From: an uncultured Thalassovita sp.
GTDB lineage: Bacteria > Bacteroidota > Bacteroidia > Cytophagales > Flammeovirgaceae
NCBI GenBank assembly: GCA_937129345.1
Contig: CAKZMZ010000161.1
Span: forward strand, 1-37,345
Direction: 5' to 3'
DNA length: 37,345 bases
A model generated the notes under the pieces. It saw nothing but the letters and a program-made list of their open reading frames with translations. It was not told where the DNA came from and made no database searches. Below are positions 1,329 through 36,233 of the stretch, one piece after another (the stretch's first letter is position 1; every line of letters begins with the position of its first letter). The position numbers and the translations under genes are program-made.

Positions 1329-2912
1329 ATGAAATTTAAAGAAGAAATTGACAGGAGGAGAACCTTTGCCATTATTAGCCACCCAGATGCTGGAAAAACC
1401 ACATTAACAGAAAAGTTATTGCTTTTTGGTGGCGCTATTCAAATAGCTGGTGCGGTAAAATCCAATAAGATTAAAAAAACCGCTACCTCCGATTTTATGG
1501 AGATAGAGAAACAAAGAGGTATTTCAGTAGCTACCTCGGTTATGGGCTTTGAGTACAAAGACCTGAAAGTAAATATTTTGGATACGCCAGGTCACCAAGA
1601 CTTTGCAGAAGATACTTTTAGGACACTCACCGCCGTAGACAGCGTGATCGTGGTAATAGACGTAGCAAAAGGCGTAGAGATACAGACCGAAAAATTGGTA
1701 AAAGTCTGCAAAATGAGGGATACACCCATTATTGTATTTATCAATAAACTAGATAGAGTGGGTAAAGATGCTTTTGATCTGATGGATGAGATAGAACAAA
1801 AGCTAGGCCTCTCTGTAATGCCTTTGAGTTGGCCTATTGGCATGGGCAATGAGTTTCAAGGCGTATACAACATATACGAAAAAAAATTGATGCTTTTTAG
1901 GGCGCATGGTAAACAAACCGAAGAAGAGTCCATAGAGTTTACCGACTTAAACGACCCTAGCCTAGAGAAGCACGTTGGAGAACGCGCTGCAGCCACACTA
2001 AGAGAAGAAGTTGAGCTGATTACCGGCATCTATCCAGAATTCAACAGAGAAGAATACCTACATGGCTTGTTAACACCTGTATTTTTTGGCAGCGCCATTA
2101 ATAATTTTGGGGTTAAAGAGCTTCTAGACTGCTTTGTACAAGTAGCGCCCTCTCCTACTCCATCTGCTACTGAAGAGCGCGATATAAAACCTTATGAAGA
2201 ACAATTTAGTGGCTTTGTTTTTAAGATACATGCCAATATAGACCCTAAACATCGCAACAGAATTGCCTTTGTTAAAATATGCTCGGGTAAGTTTGAAAGA
2301 AACAAGAATTACCAACATGTGAGACTGGGTAGGTCCTTCAAGTTTTCCAACCCTACCTCTTTTATGGCGTCGAAAAAAGAGATAGTTGATGAAGCTTTCC
2401 CCGGAGATATTGTGGGTTTGCACGACTCAGGAAACTTTAAAATCGGCGATGTCCTTACCGAAGGGGAAAAACTGAAGTTCAAAGGAATTCCGAGTTTTTC
2501 TCCCGAACAATTTAAGTACATAGAAAATGCCGATCCCATGAAAGCCAAGCAACTGAACAAAGGCATTGACCAATTAATGGATGAAGGCGTGGCCCAACTT
2601 TTTGTCAATTTAAGAAATGGTAGAAAAATTATAGGTACTGTGGGCGCTCTGCAATTTGATGTGATCCAACACAGACTTAAACATGAATACAATGCTTCAT
2701 GCCGTTGGGAGGCCATTAATTTACACAAAGCCTGTTGGTTTACCAGCGACAACAAGGAACAATTAGAAACTTTCGATAATTACAGGGTTCGGTTCATTGC
2801 AGAAGATAAATTTAAGCGCCGAGTATTTTTGACCACCTCAGAATACGAATTGCGCATGGAACAGCAAAACTTTCCAGATATCCAATTCCACTTTACCTCT
2901 GAGTTTTATTGA
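1329..2912 (+). CDS. prfC: Peptide chain release factor 3
   Basis: RF3 is the cytoplasmic class II release factor, a GTPase that removes RF1 or RF2 from the ribosome after peptide release. The 527-residue length is typical. The GTPase motifs are intact: P-loop HPDAGKT (18-24), switch region around QRGISV (71-76), DTPGH (85-89) and NKLD (139-142). Domain II and the RF3 C-terminal domain follow, including the stretch VGALQFDV that is typical of RF3. The HPDAGKT form of the P-loop separates it from EF-G. It starts at ATG 1329 after a TAnnTTTG promoter and appears monocistronic, with a 282-base gap before the next gene. Confidence 0.97.
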   Translation: MKFKEEIDRRRTFAIISHPDAGKTTLTEKLLLFGGAIQIAGAVKSNKIKKTATSDFMEIEKQRGISVATSVMGFEYKDLKVNILDTPGHQDFAEDTFRTLTAVDSVIVVIDVAKGVEIQTEKLVKVCKMRDTPIIVFINKLDRVGKDAFDLMDEIEQKLGLSVMPLSWPIGMGNEFQGVYNIYEKKLMLFRAHGKQTEEESIEFTDLNDPSLEKHVGERAAATLREEVELITGIYPEFNREEYLHGLLTPVFFGSAINNFGVKELLDCFVQVAPSPTPSATEERDIKPYEEQFSGFVFKIHANIDPKHRNRIAFVKICSGKFERNKNYQHVRLGRSFKFSNPTSFMASKKEIVDEAFPGDIVGLHDSGNFKIGDVLTEGEKLKFKGIPSFSPEQFKYIENADPMKAKQLNKGIDQLMDEGVAQLFVNLRNGRKIIGTVGALQFDVIQHRLKHEYNASCRWEAINLHKACWFTSDNKEQLETFDNYRVRFIAEDKFKRRVFLTTSEYELRMEQQNFPDIQFHFTSEFY

Positions 2913-3168
2913 AATCGGTACATTTTAAGTTGAAAGTTTTCTTACCGAAGAATGGCATTATAAAAGATATCTTTTACAGTAAAATCGTTTTCACAAAAAC
3001 CGGAGAGTAAGCAACCAACATCACCCTAGAATGATCTAGAAAAATCGGAACAGCTTGGTTTTTTACAACTAAAAACTGCAAAGTGCTTTTGTACACACTG
3101 CTTTTTACTAGTAAAAGCGTTCGGAGCAGTTTCACAACAAATTCTATCACATTTTGTATGGTGTTTAG

Positions 3169-3176
3169 TAGATTTG
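3169..3176 (+). promoter_or_regulatory. Bacteroidota -7 element upstream of the eboA-like gene
   Basis: TAGATTTG fits TAnnTTTG and ends 18 bases before ATG 3195. It overlaps a possible TTG start at 3174, which argues that translation begins at the ATG instead. The leader would be only about 12 bases. Confidence 0.5.
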
Positions 3177-3194
3177 ACAAAAAGCGTCTGTAAT

Positions 3195-4151
3195 ATGAGC
3201 GAAATTAAATTTCAAGCCAACTTAACCGAAACACATCAATATCTAAGGTCACTTTTACTCGAAAGATGCAGCCAAAAATCAATAGATTGGTTGGATAGCA
3301 AGACGGAAATCCTTGAAAAAAATTACGAAGAAAAAAAGTTATTCATGTTCTTTAGCATGGCCTCTCGCTTCTTTGAAAAGAAACAATTAGCCATGAGCAG
3401 TCTCGAAAAAGAACAAGCTTCTGCCATAAGACAAGGATTCGCCCCTTCTTCTTGGGATGCTTTACAAACCGCTCGAACCATACTTTTACTGTCTATTCCC
3501 TATGCAGACTTTGAACAACAAGTAAAAACCCTAGACACACTTTTTGAGTCTGCAGATGTTGCTGAGTTAGTTGCTTTATACGCTGCTTTGCCTTTGCTAC
3601 CAAATCCTGTTATCCACATCAAAAGAGCGGCTGAGGGTATTAGGACCAACATGACCATAGTTTTAGATGCCGTAGCACTCAACAATCCATTCCCCAGTGA
3701 GTATTTTGACGAGATATCTTGGAACCAACTCGTTTTAAAGAGCATTTTTACCGAAAGGCCAGTTTACCAAATTTACAACGCAGATACTCGGGCCAATGAA
3801 AGATTGGCCGCTACCCTTTCTGATTACGCCCATGAAAGATGGGCAGCAGGTAGAGCGGTTACGCCAGAGCTTTGGCGTTTTACAGGTCAATTTGCTAATG
3901 AGACCTTATTGGCAGATTATCAAAAGCTTTTTGAAAGCGGCAGCCCACTTGAAAAAAATGCAGCTTTATTGGCTTGTGAAGAGGCCAATACTGAGCAATC
4001 CAATCAATTACTTGAAACATTTAAGCCCAAGGTACAAAAGCTTTTAAACAGCTGGGATGAACTGGGGAAAGCTTACCAAGCAGAGAAAGGCCCCTTACCC
4101 AGTGGCTACCAGCAAGCAGGCAGTGGTGTTTCTAAACCAGACGAGAATTAA
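3195..4151 (+). CDS. EboA domain-containing protein
   Basis: The 318-residue protein resembles EboA, the first member of the ebo cluster known from cyanobacteria, Bacteroidota and, by transfer, eustigmatophyte algae. The biochemical role of EboA is unknown; in cyanobacteria the cluster has been linked to handling or export of a secondary-metabolite precursor. The sequence is alpha-helical throughout, with no signal peptide and no membrane segment, so it is probably cytoplasmic. I place the start at ATG 3195 because the TTG at 3174 lies inside a promoter-like element. A TatD-family hydrolase starts 21 bases downstream, matching the eboA-eboB order. The usual partners after that (a UbiA prenyltransferase and others) are absent here. 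Confidence 0.75.
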   Translation: MSEIKFQANLTETHQYLRSLLLERCSQKSIDWLDSKTEILEKNYEEKKLFMFFSMASRFFEKKQLAMSSLEKEQASAIRQGFAPSSWDALQTARTILLLSIPYADFEQQVKTLDTLFESADVAELVALYAALPLLPNPVIHIKRAAEGIRTNMTIVLDAVALNNPFPSEYFDEISWNQLVLKSIFTERPVYQIYNADTRANERLAATLSDYAHERWAAGRAVTPELWRFTGQFANETLLADYQKLFESGSPLEKNAALLACEEANTEQSNQLLETFKPKVQKLLNSWDELGKAYQAEKGPLPSGYQQAGSGVSKPDEN

Positions 4152-4172
4152 ACTAAAACCAGAAAATTGAAT

Positions 4173-5093
4173 ATGGAAAATATCAAGAACATGAGGTTCA
4201 TCGACTCACACATCCACATGACCTCTAGAACAACCGACGATTATGAAAGAATGGCTGCCGCAGGCATTGTAGCCATTATTGAACCCTCTTTTTGGCTAGG
4301 CCAACCAAGAACCGAAGTTGGCACTTTTAAAGATTACTTTAGTAGCTTAATTGGTTGGGAGCGCTTTAGGGCGGCACAATTTGGTATCAAACATTATTGT
4401 ACCATTGGGCTCAACTCTAAAGAAGCCAATAACGAAAAGTTGGCAGAACAAGTAATGGAGTTATTGCCACTTTATGCTTGTAAAGAAGGCGTTGTTGGCA
4501 TAGGTGAAATAGGCTATGACGATCAAACTCCCGCTGAAGATAAATTTTTTAGGCAACAGTTAGAGTTGGCAAAAGAGTTAGATTTGCCCGTTCAGATACA
4601 TACGCCACATAGAGACAAAAAGAAAGGCACTTCTCGCAGTATGGATGTCTGCGAAGAGCATGGGCTAGACCCTTCTATGGTGGTTATAGACCACAATAAT
4701 GAAGAAACGGTTAAAGAAGTTTTAGACAGAGGTTTTTGGGCAGCTTTCACCATTTATCCCAATACAAAAATGGGCAATGAAAGAATGGCCGCAGTGGTAA
4801 AGCAATATGGCCCTGAAAGGATTATCGTAGACAGTTCGGCAGATTGGGGTGTAAGCGATCCACTTTCTGTACCTAAAACAGCCTCTTTAATGTTAGAGCG
4901 CGGCATTCCGCAAGAACATGTTAGGTTAACCTGTTACCAAAATGCTTTAGATATCTACAGTACAAGCGGACAAATGAAAGAGAGTGATTGGATGGAAAGA
5001 AAGCCCATAGATCAGCGTACTTTGTACAATGATAATTCTGTATTGAGAGGTCAGTCACCTAAGGTAGAAGATACTTCTAATATTGTTAAGTAA
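4173..5093 (+). CDS. TatD family metal-dependent hydrolase (EboB-like)
   Basis: This is a 306-residue amidohydrolase-fold TIM barrel. The TatD ligands are visible: H13 and H15 in DSHIHM, E112 in GEIGYDD, H143 in QIHTPH, H174 in IDHNNE and D220 in VDSSADWG. Family members bind two metals and hydrolyse phosphoester or related bonds; TatD itself is a nuclease. The insert around FWLGQPRTEVGTFKDYF and the pairing with an EboA-type gene point to the EboB branch, whose substrate is unknown. The start is ATG 4173; a TTG six bases upstream is a weaker choice. It is probably cotranscribed with eboA and ends 12 bases before the convergent transglutaminase-like gene. Confidence 0.85.
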   Translation: MENIKNMRFIDSHIHMTSRTTDDYERMAAAGIVAIIEPSFWLGQPRTEVGTFKDYFSSLIGWERFRAAQFGIKHYCTIGLNSKEANNEKLAEQVMELLPLYACKEGVVGIGEIGYDDQTPAEDKFFRQQLELAKELDLPVQIHTPHRDKKKGTSRSMDVCEEHGLDPSMVVIDHNNEETVKEVLDRGFWAAFTIYPNTKMGNERMAAVVKQYGPERIIVDSSADWGVSDPLSVPKTASLMLERGIPQEHVRLTCYQNALDIYSTSGQMKESDWMERKPIDQRTLYNDNSVLRGQSPKVEDTSNIVK

Positions 5094-5105
5094 GCCAAAG
5101 AACTT

Positions 5106-5939
5106 TTACTCAAACACACCGAGTATTTGGCCTATATCATGGGTTTTATTGTTTTCACCTTTTTTGGTATAGGCCACTACTAAGTTTCTTAGAATCCTTT
5201 TTACAATATCCACATTATTGCAGGGCTCGTAATATTCTGGTTTCTTCTCTATTTTTAGTTGCCCAATATAATTGTCTATATCTGCCTTAGAAAAAATAAG
5301 TCCTTTGTTAAAAGCATTGATATAAAATTGAAAACGGCTGTTCTTGTAGGTTAAAATGAAGAGATTGGGTAGGTTTACACCATAAACTGGCAGCTTTAAT
5401 TTTTTTGCTACCAACATATAAATGATACAAAGACTGATAGGATTCCCTTTTCTATTAAAGAGAACATCGTTGATCATAGAGTTTTCAGGGTCGTGAAAGT
5501 TTTGTGTATCAGCCTTAAAATTGAGTTTTTTGAAAATGATGCTGTTCAAAACTTTTACTTGGTCGAAGGGATGCATGTCATATCTAAAATCCAACCAAGC
5601 CTCGTAATATATCTGCTCAAGTTCTTTATAGATTGATTCATAAGTCAGGCTGGGATATTCGTAAGAAGCAATTATCCAAAGTGCTTTTAATAAATCTTGG
5701 TTTTCACTTTCAACCCATGCTTTTAGTTTAGAGAGTATGTCATCGTAGTTCATATCCTTTAAGAGCAATTGCAAACGCTCTCTGACCAAAGGATTGTCCG
5801 TCTCTCTCAGTTCTTCTTGCAAAAAAGGAATGATGGACCTGCCATACGATACAATCTTTTCAGTTACATGATTGATAACACTTTTATCTTCGTCGTCTAT
5901 TAAAGAAATTAATGCCTTCAGTTCTTTTTGGTCTATCAT
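5106..5939 (-). CDS. Transglutaminase-like (SirB1/Transglut_core2) family protein
   Basis: The 277-residue protein has a helical, HEAT-like N-terminal third (about residues 1-75) followed by a SirB1-type transglutaminase-like domain. The diagnostic stretch is GNPISLCIIYMLVAKKLKLP, followed by GVNLPNLFIL. The Cys in SLCIIY may sit at the nucleophile position, but the position where many relatives carry a His near the FIL strand holds Asn-Leu, so catalysis is uncertain. There is no signal peptide. It starts at ATG 5939. Related proteins are common in Bacteroidota and lack an established role. The next upstream gene on the same strand is the SiaC-like gene, 145 bases away. Confidence 0.8.
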   Translation of the reverse strand: MIDQKELKALISLIDDEDKSVINHVTEKIVSYGRSIIPFLQEELRETDNPLVRERLQLLLKDMNYDDILSKLKAWVESENQDLLKALWIIASYEYPSLTYESIYKELEQIYYEAWLDFRYDMHPFDQVKVLNSIIFKKLNFKADTQNFHDPENSMINDVLFNRKGNPISLCIIYMLVAKKLKLPVYGVNLPNLFILTYKNSRFQFYINAFNKGLIFSKADIDNYIGQLKIEKKPEYYEPCNNVDIVKRILRNLVVAYTKKGENNKTHDIGQILGVFE

Positions 5940-6084
5940 TACAGGCTATTTATTTTTAAAATTTTCTGGTTTTCTATAAAAATAAAAACTCAGCTACTTC
6001 ACAAATGATGGCACATTGTTAAAACTGTTCCTTCTACTAAAATAAGAAACATATTCGACTGCCTAAGAATAATGCAGGCATAAG

Positions 6085-6453
6085 TTAATAAGTTTCGAAT
6101 TGTATAGGCAGCGAAACGATTTGTTTGTAATCTTCGCCTGAGTCTAACATATCTTCATCATCTTCTTCGTAAAACCATTTTACCGATATTTTTTTATCGT
6201 TTTGCTTTTCAAGGATTTTTAATATCTCTAGAATACATTTAGAAGAGCTTGTATTAAAATATTCCAATTTAAACTCCACTACTGCCTGATCGCTACCACT
6301 TTGCTGAAATTGCTCTAACCACTCATAAATCGGGCTGTAAAAACTGTAGGCATCTTCTGGTATGGATCTACCCTCAATAATTAAATGCCCTTTTAAAGCA
6401 TCGAAATGAATACGTGGTGTTTTTATGGTTTTTTCTAGAAATAGACCTCTCAT
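6085..6453 (-). CDS. SiaC family (DUF1987) regulatory phosphoprotein
   Basis: This 122-residue protein matches the DUF1987/SiaC family. The signature YFNTSSSK is present, with Thr at residue 68, the equivalent of the Thr that the kinase SiaB phosphorylates and the phosphatase SiaA dephosphorylates in Pseudomonas aeruginosa SiaC. There SiaC controls the diguanylate cyclase SiaD. The fold is STAS-like and cytoplasmic. No SiaA, SiaB or GGDEF gene lies nearby, so its partners must be encoded elsewhere or differ. It starts at ATG 6453. The family call is strong; the pathway role is inferred from the family only. Confidence 0.85.
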   Translation of the reverse strand: MRGLFLEKTIKTPRIHFDALKGHLIIEGRSIPEDAYSFYSPIYEWLEQFQQSGSDQAVVEFKLEYFNTSSSKCILEILKILEKQNDKKISVKWFYEEDDEDMLDSGEDYKQIVSLPIQFETY

Positions 6454-6645
6454 TGTTAAATCATTTGTGTAATCAACTTTTGGCTTTTAACGGAATAATT
6501 TTTTAAATAGCATGAATCCATCTGCCTCATAGAACTAACTAATATCTTAGATGTAATATGATTTTTCGCTTTTAGGGTATTAAGCACTGTTGATGAGGCT
6601 TTAAATATTGAATGAAATTAGTTTGGGGTAAGTCAATTAGAAACT

Positions 6646-7659
6646 ATGTCATTAAAATACAATTTTTTAAAGGAGTTACTGGCCATAGATTCTCCCTCTG
6701 GCTTTACAAAAAATGCAGCAGCATACATACATAAAGCAATTGCAGAAACGGGCTATAAACCGACCTATACAAACAAAGGAGCGGTAAAGGTAGCCTTGGG
6801 TAAAAAACCTACACTTGCCTTGGCTGCACACCTGGATACGCTGGGCGCCGTTGTCTCACAAGTTAAAGCTGATGGCACGCTCCGTTTTTCCAAAATAGGT
6901 GGGCTACAACTCAATAGTGCCGAGGGTTCTTATGTGCGGATCTACACTGCAGATAAAAAAATCTACTCAGGTACCATTTTAATGGATAACCCGGCTGCAC
7001 ATGTAAATAAAGACCTTGACCACAACAACAGAAGCATAGAAAACCTGCACATAAAAATAGATGAAGAAGTTTTTGAACAGGAGGATGTGGCAGACTTGGG
7101 AATAGCCGTTGGCGATTTTGTATGCCTTTATACACACTTCGAAGAAACGGAAAGCGGCTTCTTTAAATCGCGTTTTCTTGACAATAAAGCTGGCTGCTTT
7201 ATACTCTATGAAGTAGCCAAACATTTTGCAAAAAGCAGCAAAGATTTACCTGTAGAACTGTTTTTCTCTAACTATGAAGAAGTAGGCCACGGCGCTACAT
7301 CTGGTTTTGACCCCAATATTAAAGAATTGTTGGTAATTGACATGGGTGTAGTGGGCGACGGCTGCCAAGGCAGTGAGTTTACCTGCTCCATTTGTGCTAA
7401 AGACTCTACTGGCCCTTATGACTATGAAATGAAGACCAAATTGGTAAGACTTGCCCAAGAAAAAGAAATATCTGCAGTTACTGATGTCTTCCCTTTTTAT
7501 GGGTCAGACGGGTCTGCTGCTTTAAGGGCTGGCAATAATTTTAGGGTCGCGCTCATTGGCCCCGGTGTTGCTGCTTCACATGGCAACGAACGCACACACA
7601 AAAAAGCCATCGAAGCCACAATCGATTTATGTATCGCCTATATTGAAGAATACCTTTAA
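6646..7659 (+). CDS. M42 family metallopeptidase (aminopeptidase/glucanase type)
   Basis: The 337-residue protein fits the M42 (FrvX/YsdC) co-catalytic metallopeptidases, which are cytoplasmic, often dodecameric, aminopeptidases. The metal ligands can be read: H62 and D64 in AAHLDTLG, D179 in FLDNKAGC, the EE pair at 211-212 in NYEEVGHG, D232 in IDMG and H312 or H318 near the end. The stretch DNPAAHVNKD (114-123) belongs to the insertion domain typical of M42. Start is ATG 6646. It stands alone between a divergent SiaC-like gene and a 305-base gap. Substrate cannot be read from sequence. Confidence 0.9.
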   Translation: MSLKYNFLKELLAIDSPSGFTKNAAAYIHKAIAETGYKPTYTNKGAVKVALGKKPTLALAAHLDTLGAVVSQVKADGTLRFSKIGGLQLNSAEGSYVRIYTADKKIYSGTILMDNPAAHVNKDLDHNNRSIENLHIKIDEEVFEQEDVADLGIAVGDFVCLYTHFEETESGFFKSRFLDNKAGCFILYEVAKHFAKSSKDLPVELFFSNYEEVGHGATSGFDPNIKELLVIDMGVVGDGCQGSEFTCSICAKDSTGPYDYEMKTKLVRLAQEKEISAVTDVFPFYGSDGSAALRAGNNFRVALIGPGVAASHGNERTHKKAIEATIDLCIAYIEEYL

Positions 7660-30790: not shown

Positions 30791-30817
30791 AAAAGCCCGC
30801 AAATGCGGGCTTTTTTT
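30791..30817. terminator. Bidirectional terminator between rplT and ridA
   Basis: A 10-bp stem AAAAGCCCGC/GCGGGCTTTT (30791-30800 with 30805-30814) and an AAAT loop are followed by more T. It lies between convergent genes and overlaps the ridA stop codon by two bases. Confidence 0.88.
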
Positions 30818-31193
30818 ATTTCACGGCAATCATAGAAATCTCTACATTTACCTCTTTAGGTAAGCGACTAACTTCTATCGTCTCCCTAGCAGGAAAATCG
30901 CTTTTAAAATAAGAGCCATAAATCTCATTGACTTTCCCAAAAAAGCTCAAATCACTTAAAAAGATGCTGGTTTTAACAACATCTTCAAAAGAATAACCTG
31001 CTGCTTCTAAAATATAGCCAAGGTTGGTCATCACTTGTCTGGTCTCATCTTGGAGGCTACTGAGCACCAAATTGCCGGTAGCTGCATCTAATGGTATCTG
31101 CCCCGAAATGTACAGGGTATCCCCTACTTGCACAGCTTGGCTATATGGCCCTATAGGCTGACCCGCTTTGGGGGTATTAATTATCTTCTTCAT
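30816..31193 (-). CDS. ridA: RidA family (YjgF/UK114) deaminase
   Basis: The 125-residue protein fits RidA, which hydrolyses reactive enamine/imine intermediates from PLP enzymes. The family motifs are present: AGQPIGPYSQAV at the N-terminus, ISGQIPLD and the C-terminal RETIEVSRLPKEVNVEISMIAVK, with Arg in RETIEV as the likely carboxylate anchor. ATG 31193 is preferred over TTG 31202, which would overlap glmS. The start comes one base after the glmS stop (TAATATG), so the two are likely coupled. Confidence 0.93.
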   Translation of the reverse strand: MKKIINTPKAGQPIGPYSQAVQVGDTLYISGQIPLDAATGNLVLSSLQDETRQVMTNLGYILEAAGYSFEDVVKTSIFLSDLSFFGKVNEIYGSYFKSDFPARETIEVSRLPKEVNVEISMIAVK

Positions 31194-31194
31194 A

Positions 31195-33039
31195 TTATTC
31201 AACTGTTACTGATTTTGCTAAATTTCTAGGTTGGTCTACATTACAACCCCTCATAATGGCGATATGGTAAGATAATAATTGCAATGGAATGGAAGAAACC
31301 AATGGCATGATCGCTTCGTGTGTCGGCGGCACTTCAATTACGTGGTCTACCATACTTGGAATCAAGGCATCTCCCTTGGTAACCACAGCGATTACCTTAC
31401 CTTGTCTAGCTTTTACTTCTTGTATATTGGAGATGATTTTATCGTAAGAACTATCTCTAGTAGCGATAACTACTACAGGCATTTCTTTATCGATTAGGGC
31501 AATGGGGCCGTGTTTCATTTCTGCCGCAGGATACCCTTCGGCGTGAATATAAGATATCTCTTTTAATTTTAAGGCGCCTTCTAATGCCACAGGGAAATTG
31601 TATCCTCTACCAAGGTAAAGAAAGTTTCTTACGTCTTTGTACAATGTGGAGATTTTTTCTATCTCATCATTCAAATCCAATACCTGCTTAATCTTATCCG
31701 GAATACTCTCCATTTGCCTAGAGAGCTCTAAAAACTGATTTTTTGTGATGGTATTTTTTTCTTTCGCCAACATTAAAGCCAAAATATATAGCACCGTAAG
31801 CTGTGCAGTAAAAGCTTTTGTACTGGCAACACCAATCTCTGGTCCTGCATGTGTATAAGCTCCTTCGTGCGATGCTCTTGCAATGGAAGAGCCCACCACA
31901 TTGCAAATTCCTAAAATTATAGCGCCTTTATTTTTAGCCAATTCTATGGCTGCTAAAGTATCTGCCGTTTCACCAGACTGAGAAATGGCAAGTACAACAT
32001 CACCTTTGTTAATGATGGGGTTTCTGTATCTAAATTCTGAAGCGTATTCAACTTCTACAGGTGTGCGTGTAAATTCTTCGATAACATATTCCGCAACAAG
32101 TCCTGCATGCCAAGAGGTACCGCAGGCCACAATAATAATGCGCTTGGCTTCCACCAAGTCATTAAAGTGCTTTCTAATACCGCCAAGCAAAGCATGTTCT
32201 TTTTCAGAAATAAGTCTGCCTCGCATACAATCTGCTACTGAGCGAGGTTGCTCAAATATTTCTTTGAGCATAAAGTAATCAAAGCCACCTTTTTCTATGG
32301 CTTCTAGTTCCATATCGAGTGTATGCACATAAGGCGATTGCTCAATAGCTTCTATATTTTTTATATTGATGCCCGTGGTTTTATCTATAATGGCCACTTC
32401 TTCATCATTGAGGTACACTACATTTTTGGTATACTCAACAATTGGTGTAGCATCAGAAGCTAAAAAGAATTCATTGTTCTCTGCGCCAATGCCTATTACC
32501 AAAGGGCTTCCTTTTCTGGCTGCTATTAATTGATCGGGATTGTCTTTTGATAAAATGACGATGGCATAAGCACCTACTACCTTGGTGAGTGCAATCCTTA
32601 CCGCTTCATCCAAAGAGCACTTATTATTTTTTTGTATATCCTCTATAAAATGGATAAATACTTCGGAATCGGTCTCACTCAAAAATTGATGCCCTTTTTG
32701 TTGAAGCTCTTTTTTAATAGAATCATAGTTTTCAATGATTCCATTGTGTATGATTGCCAAGTTTTTATCTGAAGAGTAATGCGGATGGGCATTTACATCA
32801 TTGGGTTCTCCATGTGTGGCCCATCTAGTGTGTCCTATCCCCACCTTTCCATGTGGAGTTTTACCTGAAAACGTTGTCTCTAAATCGTTTACTTTTCCTT
32901 GCTTCTTAAAGATACTAAGATCTTTATCTATTAAAGCAATACCTGCAGAGTCGTATCCCCTGTACTCTAATCTTTTTAGTCCTTTAATTAGGACATCATA
33001 GGCGTTGTTTTCGCCGAGGTAGGCAACTATTCCACACAT
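31195..33039 (-). CDS. glmS: Glucosamine-fructose-6-phosphate aminotransferase, isomerizing
   Basis: GlmS uses glutamine and fructose-6-phosphate to make glucosamine-6-phosphate, the first committed step to peptidoglycan and lipopolysaccharide amino sugars. The 614-residue product begins MCGIVAYLG, where the Cys after Met becomes the N-terminal nucleophile; this fixes the start at ATG 33039. The glutaminase motif GHTRWATHG and both SIS domains with CGTSWHAG, ISQSGETADT and the terminal PRNLAKSVTVE are intact. It is followed by ridA with a one-base gap. No glmS ribozyme was looked for successfully; the 5' side is AT-rich without obvious structure. Confidence 0.97.
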   Translation of the reverse strand: MCGIVAYLGENNAYDVLIKGLKRLEYRGYDSAGIALIDKDLSIFKKQGKVNDLETTFSGKTPHGKVGIGHTRWATHGEPNDVNAHPHYSSDKNLAIIHNGIIENYDSIKKELQQKGHQFLSETDSEVFIHFIEDIQKNNKCSLDEAVRIALTKVVGAYAIVILSKDNPDQLIAARKGSPLVIGIGAENNEFFLASDATPIVEYTKNVVYLNDEEVAIIDKTTGINIKNIEAIEQSPYVHTLDMELEAIEKGGFDYFMLKEIFEQPRSVADCMRGRLISEKEHALLGGIRKHFNDLVEAKRIIIVACGTSWHAGLVAEYVIEEFTRTPVEVEYASEFRYRNPIINKGDVVLAISQSGETADTLAAIELAKNKGAIILGICNVVGSSIARASHEGAYTHAGPEIGVASTKAFTAQLTVLYILALMLAKEKNTITKNQFLELSRQMESIPDKIKQVLDLNDEIEKISTLYKDVRNFLYLGRGYNFPVALEGALKLKEISYIHAEGYPAAEMKHGPIALIDKEMPVVVIATRDSSYDKIISNIQEVKARQGKVIAVVTKGDALIPSMVDHVIEVPPTHEAIMPLVSSIPLQLLSYHIAIMRGCNVDQPRNLAKSVTVE

Positions 33040-33141
33040 AAAAAATAAGTTAAGCTGAAAAAATAAGTATGAAAATAATAGCAATTATAATAGCTAATTA
33101 TTTTAAATATAAAGTAACCTTAAAATTTTATTGTGTGGGCC

Positions 33142-33179: not shown

Positions 33180-34586
33180 TTATTCTCTCGGAGTATTCTT
33201 CGTAAAGTAAATCCTGAGCTGTAATGGATTGGTCCCGTAGTCGTCATTGCCGAAAACACATCTGGCGATACTGCCTCGACTCAAAAACGGATTAATCATA
33301 AATCCGTTGTTCTCTCGGGTGCCATTCAATAATTCTTGCATGTAAGAAGTGATGTCTGCAACTGGATAGGTTCCCGCACCATTGGCATAGGCAAGTGTGA
33401 GTACAGGTGTATTTTGATTAATCTCAAATTCACCATTACTCACAGTTTCTCCAAAACGGCCTTCTTGCAACAATAACACATTCTGATTTCTATTCCCATT
33501 TTCATCTAGTACAAAGAAAGCAATGTTTTGTGGTGGTGTGCCATGCACAGATTGGCTAGATTCCACAGGATCAAAAGAAAGTTCTGCTTTGTTGATGGCA
33601 ACATTAGGATTTTGTTCTGCAAAACTAGCCAAACCAGGAAATTTCATAATGGTTGTAAGACCTACCGCTGACTGTAAGTAGCATTCATTTGCTGTATTAT
33701 CAGTATTTATCGTTTCACCTATTTGCAAGCCAGATAAATGAGCAGAATTACTAAAATCTGCTCGGGCACTAAAAAAAGATGTACCGATAAAAAAGTTCTG
33801 TATTCTCGAAATAGTATCTTCTGGCAAAGAAAAATAAACCCTAAAAGCAAAATTTATCGAAGTAGAAGATGCAGGGGCAAATCTAATAGTGTAAGCATCC
33901 GCATCTGTATTTGCAGGTCTTAAATTAATTCCTTTAAAAATATTTACTTCGAAAAGTTCTTGATTTAACATATTCGCAGAGGTTCTATTATTGAACAGAC
34001 TCTCTCCGATTTCATTTGCCTCGAAGACCAGTACATCTATAGAATCTTGTTCTGGATTTAAGGTAGCTCTGCCAACAACAGTTTCGCCTACATCTTCAAT
34101 CCTATCACTCTGATAATAAGGCAATGTATCGATTATGGATTCATTTAAAGTATACAACTCAAAGTCTTGTGTTTGCGAGGCATCACCTGAAACCAGGGTG
34201 TAACTCATAACCAATTTTGCCGAGTCAAAAACTGCATCGTTTTCCGCAGCAATAAAACTCTCGTTGTACTCTGATGGTATGAACAATTTAAGGAAGGACT
34301 CTGTGTAGGTCGTTCCAAATTTTTCGTCTTGTTCTACACCTGCCAGTAAATTGCCACTCGTAACTACAGAGTCTACATAAGCAATAGAGGTTTCTACGGT
34401 AAAAGTATCCGTAAAGTAAGTATTTAGTAAAATGCCTTCATCCTGAAAGGAAGAACCTATTTCGTCTACTTCATTACAAGATGTAAAGTATAAAAGGATT
34501 ACTGAAAGTAGTAATCCTTTAAAAATGTAAAGCAAGTTTTTGTTAAATCTGCTAGAACTATTCAGTAAGTTCGTTATAAATCTCAT
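33180..34586 (-). CDS. DUF4270 family lipoprotein
   Basis: The 468-residue product fits DUF4270, a family found in Bacteroidota with no known function. It begins with a basic and hydrophobic segment ending in a lipobox-like YFTSC, so it is probably an envelope lipoprotein, though the Cys is at about residue 37 and the signal is longer than usual. The rest is beta-rich, including repeated strand motifs such as ELSFDPVESSQSV and DITSYMQELLNG. It overlaps the gene before it by 29 bases, which suggests translational coupling. A terminator follows. The recurrent pairing with the GT5-like gene in related genomes is from memory. Confidence 0.85.
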   Translation of the reverse strand: MRFITNLLNSSSRFNKNLLYIFKGLLLSVILLYFTSCNEVDEIGSSFQDEGILLNTYFTDTFTVETSIAYVDSVVTSGNLLAGVEQDEKFGTTYTESFLKLFIPSEYNESFIAAENDAVFDSAKLVMSYTLVSGDASQTQDFELYTLNESIIDTLPYYQSDRIEDVGETVVGRATLNPEQDSIDVLVFEANEIGESLFNNRTSANMLNQELFEVNIFKGINLRPANTDADAYTIRFAPASSTSINFAFRVYFSLPEDTISRIQNFFIGTSFFSARADFSNSAHLSGLQIGETINTDNTANECYLQSAVGLTTIMKFPGLASFAEQNPNVAINKAELSFDPVESSQSVHGTPPQNIAFFVLDENGNRNQNVLLLQEGRFGETVSNGEFEINQNTPVLTLAYANGAGTYPVADITSYMQELLNGTRENNGFMINPFLSRGSIARCVFGNDDYGTNPLQLRIYFTKNTPRE

Positions 34587-35373
34587 AATATGAATCTATG
34601 TAATTTCCGTTATTGGCCTCAATAACGTTTATTTTTTTACTCTCCTCAAACTCGGTAAGTAAACCGTTGATTGAGCTCTCGACTTCTTTACTGGCCTTGG
34701 TAACTCTATCAGAATATTCTGCACCAATTTTTATAAAACCATTAAAGTCTGCCGATTCTAAACTTTTGAGCATATCATCTTCAATATCCATCATCTTAAC
34801 TTTTTTGATGAGGTCTTCGCTAAATTTATGCTCAAAACCTGTGTTGTAAACTGTAAAGATGGTTTTTGCATCTTTAAACATTGGATCGTTCTTGTAAGTT
34901 GTTTTCAGATACATTGGTATCAAGCTCGTCATCCAATCATTACAATGCACTATATCGGGTGCCCATCCTAGTTTTTTTACCGTTTCGATAACTCCTTTGC
35001 AGAAGAAGATGGCCCTCTCATCATTATCATTGTAGAACCTTTCTTGCTTGTCTTTAAATACAGACTTACGATGAAAATAATCTTCGTTATCAATAAAATA
35101 TACCTGCAATTTAGCTGAAGGAATAGAAGCCACTTTTATAGTTAGTGGTTTTTCTTCATCTCCTACGTTAATGTTAATTCCAGAAAGCCTGACTACTTCG
35201 TGCAGACGGTTTTTCCTTTCATTGATTATACCAAACCTCGGTACTAGTATCCTGATTTCCATACCTCTCTCTTGCATAGATTGAGGTAGTTTTCGAACGT
35301 AATCTGCAACTTCTGAACTTTTTAAAAATGGATTGATCTCACTAGAGACATAGAGGATTTTAAGATTTCCCAT
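34558..35373 (-). CDS. Stand-alone GT5 N-terminal domain ('glycogen/starch synthase' family)
   Basis: The 271-residue protein covers only the N-terminal Rossmann domain of GT5 glycogen synthase, which normally has about 480 residues. Matching regions are ILYVSSEINPF and DIVHCNDWMTSLIP. The ADP-glucose-binding motif KTGGL is replaced by KSSEV (18-22), and the second domain holding the catalytic residues is absent. It is therefore unlikely to be an active glycogen synthase despite database-style names for this family. Similar short forms are conserved in Bacteroidota beside DUF4270, implying some other role. A TAnnTTTG promoter lies 30 bases upstream of ATG 35373. Confidence 0.8.
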   Translation of the reverse strand: MGNLKILYVSSEINPFLKSSEVADYVRKLPQSMQERGMEIRILVPRFGIINERKNRLHEVVRLSGININVGDEEKPLTIKVASIPSAKLQVYFIDNEDYFHRKSVFKDKQERFYNDNDERAIFFCKGVIETVKKLGWAPDIVHCNDWMTSLIPMYLKTTYKNDPMFKDAKTIFTVYNTGFEHKFSEDLIKKVKMMDIEDDMLKSLESADFNGFIKIGAEYSDRVTKASKEVESSINGLLTEFEESKKINVIEANNGNYIDSYYEIYNELTE

Positions 35374-35534: not shown

Positions 35535-36233
35535 TTAATCTATAAAATTGATGGCTTTTTTATGTATATAAACCCCTCTTCTTATAGAATCGGTTCCATA
35601 AAATGGATCGGTAATATCGCTAATATATTGCAAGTTTATTTTAAGCGACTCTACCAATCCTACGCCCTCGCCGTAAATCTCCCAAGAGACTCGTTTGTCT
35701 ACTATACTAGAATCTTGTTGATGCACTACTTTAAAAGCACGCTCCAACTCTTTATGCGGTAATAAAAAGTTTTCTATTCTATAAAATTTAGACTCTAAAG
35801 CATTCAACGCATTTCCATCCCAACTCGAATTAGATTCTAATGGCAAGGCCAATTTTATAAAGGATATGTTATTTTCAGTTTTTATGATCCTATTAAAATC
35901 TTTTCTTACCGTCCAAACAGAATCTAATTGCCAATTACCAAGGCTGTCTGTTCTTGAGTAAAGCAAAACCTTTTGGGCAATGCCTGTAGCATTGAGCTGA
36001 TTTAAAGTATCGCCAATTTCTTCTCTCAGATAATAAAAGCTGGTATCTGTAGGCTCAAATTCTTTAAAAGTGACTTTCTCAACTTCATACTCAATGGCAT
36101 ATCCTGCTTGTAAAGGAAAAAAAGAAGTGCCAAAAAGTTGCGCAGGCGGTTCGATCACCTCCTCGCTGCAAGCGGCAAACAATAAAAGAAGAATAGAAAA
36201 AAAAACCGAGGTAAAAAAATGCTTGATTTCCAT
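35535..36233 (-). CDS. Hypothetical lipoprotein
   Basis: I do not recognise a named family. The 232-residue product has a lipoprotein signal: a hydrophobic stretch after MEIKHF and a lipobox LFAAC with Cys at residue 22. The rest is a soluble, beta-rich region with motifs such as FFPLQAGYAIEYEVEKVTF and YGEGVGLVESLKINLQYISD, which look like a lipocalin-like or similar small beta-barrel found in many Bacteroidota lipoproteins. It lies 41 bases after the nucleoside phosphorylase gene on the same strand, so it may be cotranscribed with it. Role unknown. Confidence 0.75.
   Translation of the reverse strand: MEIKHFFTSVFFSILLLLFAACSEEVIEPPAQLFGTSFFPLQAGYAIEYEVEKVTFKEFEPTDTSFYYLREEIGDTLNQLNATGIAQKVLLYSRTDSLGNWQLDSVWTVRKDFNRIIKTENNISFIKLALPLESNSSWDGNALNALESKFYRIENFLLPHKELERAFKVVHQQDSSIVDKRVSWEIYGEGVGLVESLKINLQYISDITDPFYGTDSIRRGVYIHKKAINFID

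Follow-up and report, generated by a model that had tools for sequence, protein, structure and literature searches.

A half-length, apparently domain-excised relative of glycogen synthase in Bacteroidota and its genetic linkage to DUF4270 proteins

Introduction

The described proteins closest to the one reported here are the GT5 glycogen synthases (GlgA; TIGR02095, PF08323), with which it shares the fold of the N-domain, the HxxDW region, a C-terminal crossover helix and ancestry, but from which it differs in having no donor domain, no catalytic Glu and no KTGGL motif, in the frequent loss of Asp137 and His161, and in an extra set of invariant Arg and Gln residues. The full-length GlgA2 proteins of other Bacteroidota (including those of NCBIfam NF010698 and PRK14098, named 'starch synthase') have R41, R53, R62 and Q90 in common with the half-length proteins; they differ in being two-domain proteins, most of which keep all four ligand positions, while a member from family f37 has lost KTGGL. 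The SPS construct of PDB 6ldq (residues 27-220 and 406-426, according to its title) likewise joins a GT-B N-domain to the C-terminal segment that belongs to it, but is man-made and comes from another family. That Bacteroidetes keep a GlgA-GT5 fragment is stated in one sentence of a review (PMC11046441, Chem Rev 2024). This is almost certainly the same gene, whose anatomy, distribution and function are not given in the accessible sections of that article; beyond it, the open-access texts found, as far as their excerpts extend, hold nothing on the anatomy, distribution, BAM linkage or function of the half-length protein.

The other described system that bears on this locus is the BAM complex of Bacteroidota (9hjm, 9n2d, 9his/9hj3). 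A neighbouring gene that overlaps the half-length gene encodes a DUF4270 protein of the BAM kind, whereas the half-length protein itself has no sequence match to the chains of the solved Bacteroidota BAM entries (phmmer, E <= 0.01).

Results

The window, by which we mean the whole stretch of DNA analysed (37,345 nucleotides), contains an open reading frame at 34558-35373 on the minus strand whose 271-residue product (henceforth the half protein) is predicted to be the N-domain of a GT5 enzyme, a domain-excised GlgA. Pfam Glyco_transf_5 (PF08323) matches it with 221 bits (E 2e-65, profile positions 1-221 of 239, cut-off 22.7), no C-domain family reached the gathering score in the Pfam search, and its TIGR02095 score of 160.7 bits lies below the NCBIfam curated score of 328.45. 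Full-length NCBIfam models match it no further than about position 235 of 489, and the GT-B C-domain with the catalytic Glu, which we take to be E377 in E. coli, is absent. The N-terminus corresponds to the first strand of a GT-B fold, and the protein is presumably cytoplasmic. Its NCBI name is presumably glycogen/starch synthase, that of an enzyme that it cannot be. The first-pass annotation had held that the protein consists of the N-terminal domain and lacks the domain that carries the catalytic Glu; the donor domain is indeed gone, but beyond the N-domain there follow ~14 terminal residues that correspond to the C-terminal helix of GlgA (see below).

At the position of the KTGGL loop, located from sequence and alignment at residues 18-22 (35308-35322, minus strand), the window protein reads K-S-S-E-V, in agreement with the degenerate motif reported earlier. 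With the C-domain missing and this loop degenerate, the proposal that the protein is non-catalytic also holds, if read as non-catalytic as a GT5. The window protein does contain DIVHCNDWMTSLIP, with HCNDW at residues 143-147 (34933-34947, minus strand, by alignment), but a well-kept DIVHCNDW, as had been claimed, is not a rule of the family, because 25 of the 50 half proteins have G in place of the D. A split catalytic half encoded beside the gene, which would have spoken against this picture, is absent among the neighbouring window genes (Pfam), and a search for a true glycogen synthase elsewhere revealed a separate GT3 enzyme in the window genome (727 bits).

We compared the ligand residues of 50 half proteins (L222 included, though the start of its frame is over-extended, and L213 excluded) with those of full-length proteins, using residue numbers that we take to be those of E. 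coli GlgA, mapped through the alignment. K15 is kept in five half proteins and the GG of KTGGL in none; D137 is kept in 25 and H161 in nine, so that some acceptor binding may persist. The sensing of a nucleotide or sugar that had been suggested earlier would have to manage with most of these ligand residues gone. By contrast, all four positions are kept in 18/18 GlgA and 12/14 GlgA2, the division of the full-length rows into these two groups being our own and the placement of L221 unsure (78/53). The half protein L213 of family f58 has lost the GG and the His but kept the K and the D. At position 106, where GT5 enzymes have the stacking Tyr, 38 of the 50 carry F or Y. Conversely, R41, R53, R62 and Q90 are invariant in 50/50 half proteins and 14/14 GlgA2 but occur in at most 11% of GlgA; being common to half proteins and GlgA2, these marks are older than the excision. 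They lie in the most conserved block of the alignment (residues 41-131; 34981-35253, minus strand), together with H58, K80, N117, R120 and T131. In family f37, the full-length GlgA2 of the PRK14098 type at L217 (6903-8372, plus strand; 935 bits) has lost KTGGL, which reads RVSAL; this may represent another way of departing from glycogen synthase activity.

The C-terminal helix of the full-length proteins follows the pattern SAxKYxxLYRxL, and a similar YYxLYxxL ends many half proteins. When the final 16 alignment columns of the half proteins were made into a profile and compared with the full-length proteins, the true C-terminus ranked first among 479 windows in GlgA2 (z = 5.3) and first among 473 in GlgA (z = 5.1). 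Two of three control windows showed nothing similar (z 3.0-3.2), and the third picked out the end of the N-domain, which is what homology would lead one to expect. In the window protein, the helix profile and the model place the retained crossover helix at residues 258-271 (34561-34602, minus strand). VIA-align superposed an AF2 model of the half protein on E. coli GlgA (3cop) with 221 aligned residues, Z 14.9 and rmsd 3.8, over model residues 4..269 and GlgA residues 1..476, where each range gives the first and last aligned residue only. In the comparison with GlgA structures that had been proposed, each of the best 14 PDB chains found by Foldseek with this model is a GT5-type glycogen or starch synthase. 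The model is weak (mean pLDDT 56.8, pTM 0.65, worst at about residues 47-87), so the conserved residues are without placement in three dimensions and may not form one face. The match of the C-terminal helix and the span of the VIA-align superposition suggest that the gene lost the region for the donor-binding domain from its interior and kept that for the crossover helix. Rather than being in decay or merely truncated, the half protein appears to be one whose C-domain was excised and whose crossover helix was retained. L213 also retains the crossover helix by inspection, its alignment covering residues 5-231 only.

In a careful tree of the N-domain (76 of 83 rows, seven long or oddly composed rows being left out; a quick tree took in all 83), 48 half proteins form one clade with support 100/100, which takes in the class of the window genome and several other lineages of the phylum. 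Six full-length GlgA2 proteins join this clade (98/88). L213 sits elsewhere, among seven full-length proteins (96/96), and a single origin of the half state was recovered in 0/200 bootstrap trees (5-95% range 2-2). The half-length form of L213 therefore appears, on this tree, to have arisen independently.

A homologue of the half protein is found in 114 of 117 relatives, 112 of the 114 having one match only; the second match in the other two (G088 and G100) is a full-length frame. In an even sample of the phylum, 390 of 392 genomes have a match, half or full length, and both misses belong to family f37, in which the member examined is full-length. Within the class of the window genome, all 87 genomes by our count match at E <= 5.4e-66, with open frames of 268-397 residues among the matches listed. 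The three relatives that have no match to the half protein (G075, G105 and G116) have no PF14092 match either; the assemblies of G075 and G116, 94% and 84% complete, are fragmented drafts, in each of which the absence of a single locus could account for both gaps.

Retention is accompanied by strong conservation. Over the 61 of 80 named Cytophagales loci that have all four labelled genes (the other 19 being left out), mean pairwise identity is 75.1% for the half protein (86.6% over residues 1-180), 75.6% for GlmS, 49.1% for PanC and 24.1% for DUF4270, where the PanC and DUF4270 cluster labels go back to one Pfam-checked member each and the GlmS label to a phmmer match to the window gene. The window protein and that of a congener are 96% identical over residues 1-180; synonymous sites are saturated, which is why no dN/dS is given for it, and NG86 values among three f21 genomes are 0.15-0.27. 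In the sampled relatives the half protein is as constrained as GlmS and more so than PanC. Near-universal retention and purifying selection support the constraint that the first-pass annotation had supposed.

In the window, the half gene is followed on the same strand by a DUF4270 gene (33180-34586, minus strand), glmS (31195-33084, minus strand; NCBIfam and open reading frame search), a gene of the RidA family that ends the run (PF01042 by Pfam; 30816-31202, minus strand) and, directly after it, a terminator-like hairpin of 10 pairs (30791-30814, minus strand). The hairpin is a consensus match only, and the scanned stretch has seven such sites against 4.8 expected. The half gene and the DUF4270 gene overlap by 29 bases (34558-34586), as had been noted; across loci, overlap lengths are counted from the first start codon, which makes them upper bounds. 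The DUF4270 product is a candidate surface lipoprotein: PF14092 matches it over the whole profile (80.8 bits), Cys37 of a lipobox recognised by inspection is invariant, and it has homology to a BAM subunit (see below). Upstream of the half gene lies a 232-residue lipoprotein-like frame (35535-36233, minus strand; FAACSEE) with no Pfam match, in the place that PanC occupies in most Cytophagales loci; the window genome is an exception, its PanC gene being on another contig.

Of the 80 Cytophagales loci, 74 have a divergent PanC gene at -1, 72 have a gene of the DUF4270 cluster (71 of them at +1 or +2), and 73 have GlmS downstream at +1 to +3. The exceptions include four Pontibacter loci (L056, L057, L068 and L100), all of which keep the half gene with no adjacent DUF4270 gene. 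The PanC-half-GlmS block of Cytophagales also occurs in L060 (PBTY01000022.1), a metagenome-assembled genome titled Rickettsiales bacterium and probably mislabelled. Outside the class of the window genome, the half gene is followed in 11 loci by a lipoprotein-like and a barrel-like gene (mostly by inspection, with Pfam in single members); in L133 and L206 no lipoprotein was called beside the half gene, with a barrel-like frame near it in L206. Of nine full-length loci with wide flanks, seven show genes for a DUF4270-like lipoprotein and a barrel downstream (partly by inspection), L216 and L217 being the two in which this arrangement was not seen, and a gene for a HAD-like phosphatase is interposed in five of the seven. 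Such a phosphatase gene stands between GlgA2, or the f58 half gene, and the DUF4270-like lipoprotein gene in L219, L220, L221, L223, L224 and L213 (Pfam-checked in L220 only). This reading of neighbours left out L136, L204, L209 and L215, where the gene fell outside the selected set of frames, and the wide flanks of L153-L156.

The model of the window DUF4270 protein (pLDDT 82.9, pTM 0.79) matches chains of solved BAM structures from P. gingivalis, F. johnsoniae and B. thetaiotaomicron: 9hjm_G with Z 24.9 (382 aligned, rmsd 4.8), 9n2d_C with 21.0 and 9his_G with 20.5, the next row having 9.4. Foldseek gave E 4.5e-17 to 2.6e-16 for the model against BAM chains, whose identity is taken from PDB titles and molecule names. 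From its PF14092 match and predicted fold, the DUF4270 protein thus appears to be a homologue of a solved BAM-complex subunit. The barrel family encoded beside the lipoprotein outside the class of the window genome also matches BAM chains (9hiv_F, E 3.5e-63; 9n2d_B, 3.7e-58; 9hjm_F, 3.6e-55). Furthermore, hhalign shows homology among the DUF4270-like lipoproteins encoded next to half and full-length forms (A2-A3 99.6%, E 3.5e-24; A3-A4 99.5%, E 3.9e-23; A2-A4 99.4%, E 1.3e-21), whereas two controls of lipoprotein against barrel gave 0.1%. The linkage of DUF4270 to half and full-length GlgA-like proteins is therefore ancient. PF14092 matches in 96 of 117 relatives, a lower bound for DUF4270 because the model under-calls it: an f8 frame with no Pfam match (L143, 5682-7202) aligns to A6 with E 3.7e-42. 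This subunit would thus be spread more widely than Pfam indicates.

The tie to DUF4270 that had been proposed from the overlap is therefore real and ancient, but apparently not obligatory. The BAM barrel was found in 19 of 25 genomes tested, among them 7/7 of the reduced family f8; in the draft genome of the window it lies on another contig (C259), and G075 and G116 have the barrel with the half protein undetected. Four f21 genomes keep the half protein with no DUF4270 or BAM barrel detected and no match for glycogen phosphorylase, CBM_48 or a GT3 synthase. Likewise, the f21 loci L137, L138, L139 and L141 have no DUF4270 match among the genes listed (phmmer), and PF14092, known to under-call, matches in 0/5 f21 genomes. 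Three genomes of 1.0-1.2 Mb that are 98-99% complete (G038, G053 and G080) keep the half protein with no match for PanC, GlmS, PF14092, the BAM barrel (A5), phosphorylase, CBM_48 or a GT3 synthase, and 12 of 14 relatives that lack a PanC match keep it as well. PF00534 has no match in G067 and G080, both of which keep the half protein, one match in G053, one below the cut-off in G038, and 26 in G000. The first-pass annotation had missed that the crossover helix is retained, that the protein is widely distributed and that DUF4270 is a family of BAM-complex subunits.

Discussion

We consider it fairly probable that the half protein is a conserved non-catalytic binding protein made by excision. 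An ancestral GlgA-like enzyme (GlgA2) would have had its donor-binding Rossmann domain removed by internal excision, which left the N-domain and the crossover helix packed on it as one compact domain, as sequence and a low-confidence fold suggest. Since the domain is missing and the ligand residues are lost, such a protein should neither bind ADP-glucose in the GT5 way nor carry out the GT5 reaction. Instead, the conserved block (R41, R53, H58, R62, K80, Q90, N117 and R120) may bind a partner protein or an anionic ligand, and the half protein may act as a cytoplasmic scaffold or regulator. The excision, the loss of GT5 ligand residues, the strong constraint and the ancient linkage to BAM-type subunits are supported by the data presented here.

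A major question is which process this protein serves. As the DUF4270 lipoprotein of the BAM machine would be its oldest traceable genetic partner, envelope biogenesis is the most likely answer, though we would give it well under an even chance; the f21 genomes weaken what is still the best lead. The more specific proposal of a cytoplasmic outer-membrane assembly factor, which would couple the synthesis or supply of BAM components, or the sugar status of the envelope, to the DUF4270/BAM machine, is tentative. It draws on the matches of the DUF4270 model and of the neighbouring barrel to BAM chains, on the homology of the lipoproteins beside half and full-length GlgA2 forms, on the position of the DUF4270 gene at +1 or +2 in Cytophagales and on the barrel count, including that in f8. 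Yet the half protein is presumably cytoplasmic while these subunits belong to the envelope, it persists in four f21 genomes with neither partner detected, the barrel gene is on another contig in the window's draft genome, two fragmented drafts have a barrel and no detected half protein, and gene linkage is not function. More doubtful still is the strongest version, a phylum-wide pseudoenzyme, made twice independently, that is a core and possibly essential cytoplasmic part of envelope biogenesis coupled to the BAM machine.

The old acceptor site could alternatively make the half protein an alpha-glucan-binding regulator of glycogen metabolism, and the frequent F or Y at position 106, the half gene following glgB, malQ and comA in L130 (Pfam), and genes of similar size preceding it in L131, L132, L134 and L135 would fit. 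This is nevertheless unlikely, given that f21 genomes keep the protein with phosphorylase, CBM_48 and GT3 synthase unmatched and that the GG of the KTGG loop is lost in all 50 half proteins; part of this loop moves to bind an acceptor analogue in CLg1GBSS, according to the excerpted text of PMC6086201. A dedicated regulator of PanC or GlmS would account for the conserved positions of both genes in Cytophagales, but the relatives that keep the half protein with no PanC match, and the three small genomes with no GlmS match, make it improbable. Split GT-B enzymes do exist, Alg13/Alg14 being one. That the half protein is one half of such an enzyme, with its C-domain encoded separately, is a touch more improbable again: PF00534, the sole C-domain family searched, is unmatched in two genomes that keep the half protein, and the window neighbours include no C-domain gene (Pfam). 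A decaying remnant of glgA was also considered, the enzyme motif and half of the length being gone, and is refuted by purifying selection and near-universal retention.

We return to a non-catalytic binding protein with an envelope role as its most likely, if uncertain, use. Near-universal in the sampled relatives, constrained like GlmS, and kept in genomes of about 1 Mb in which its usual neighbours were not found, the half protein probably hides an important function of the phylum behind a wrong name. Many Bacteroidota carry it with very little change, in many cases next to a BAM gene, and it therefore probably does another important job, for which the linkage to BAM subunits offers a concrete first hypothesis.

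Two further loci deserve mention. In L130, a locus of family f43, the half gene is immediately preceded by glgB, malQ and comA (2429-7018, plus strand). The window's own genome also encodes, at L002 (contig C374, 799-2133, minus strand), a 444-residue two-domain glycosyltransferase that scores 111.8 bits with TIGR02149 (below the cut-off), carries an SGGLG motif and stands between the GT4 and GT5 types.
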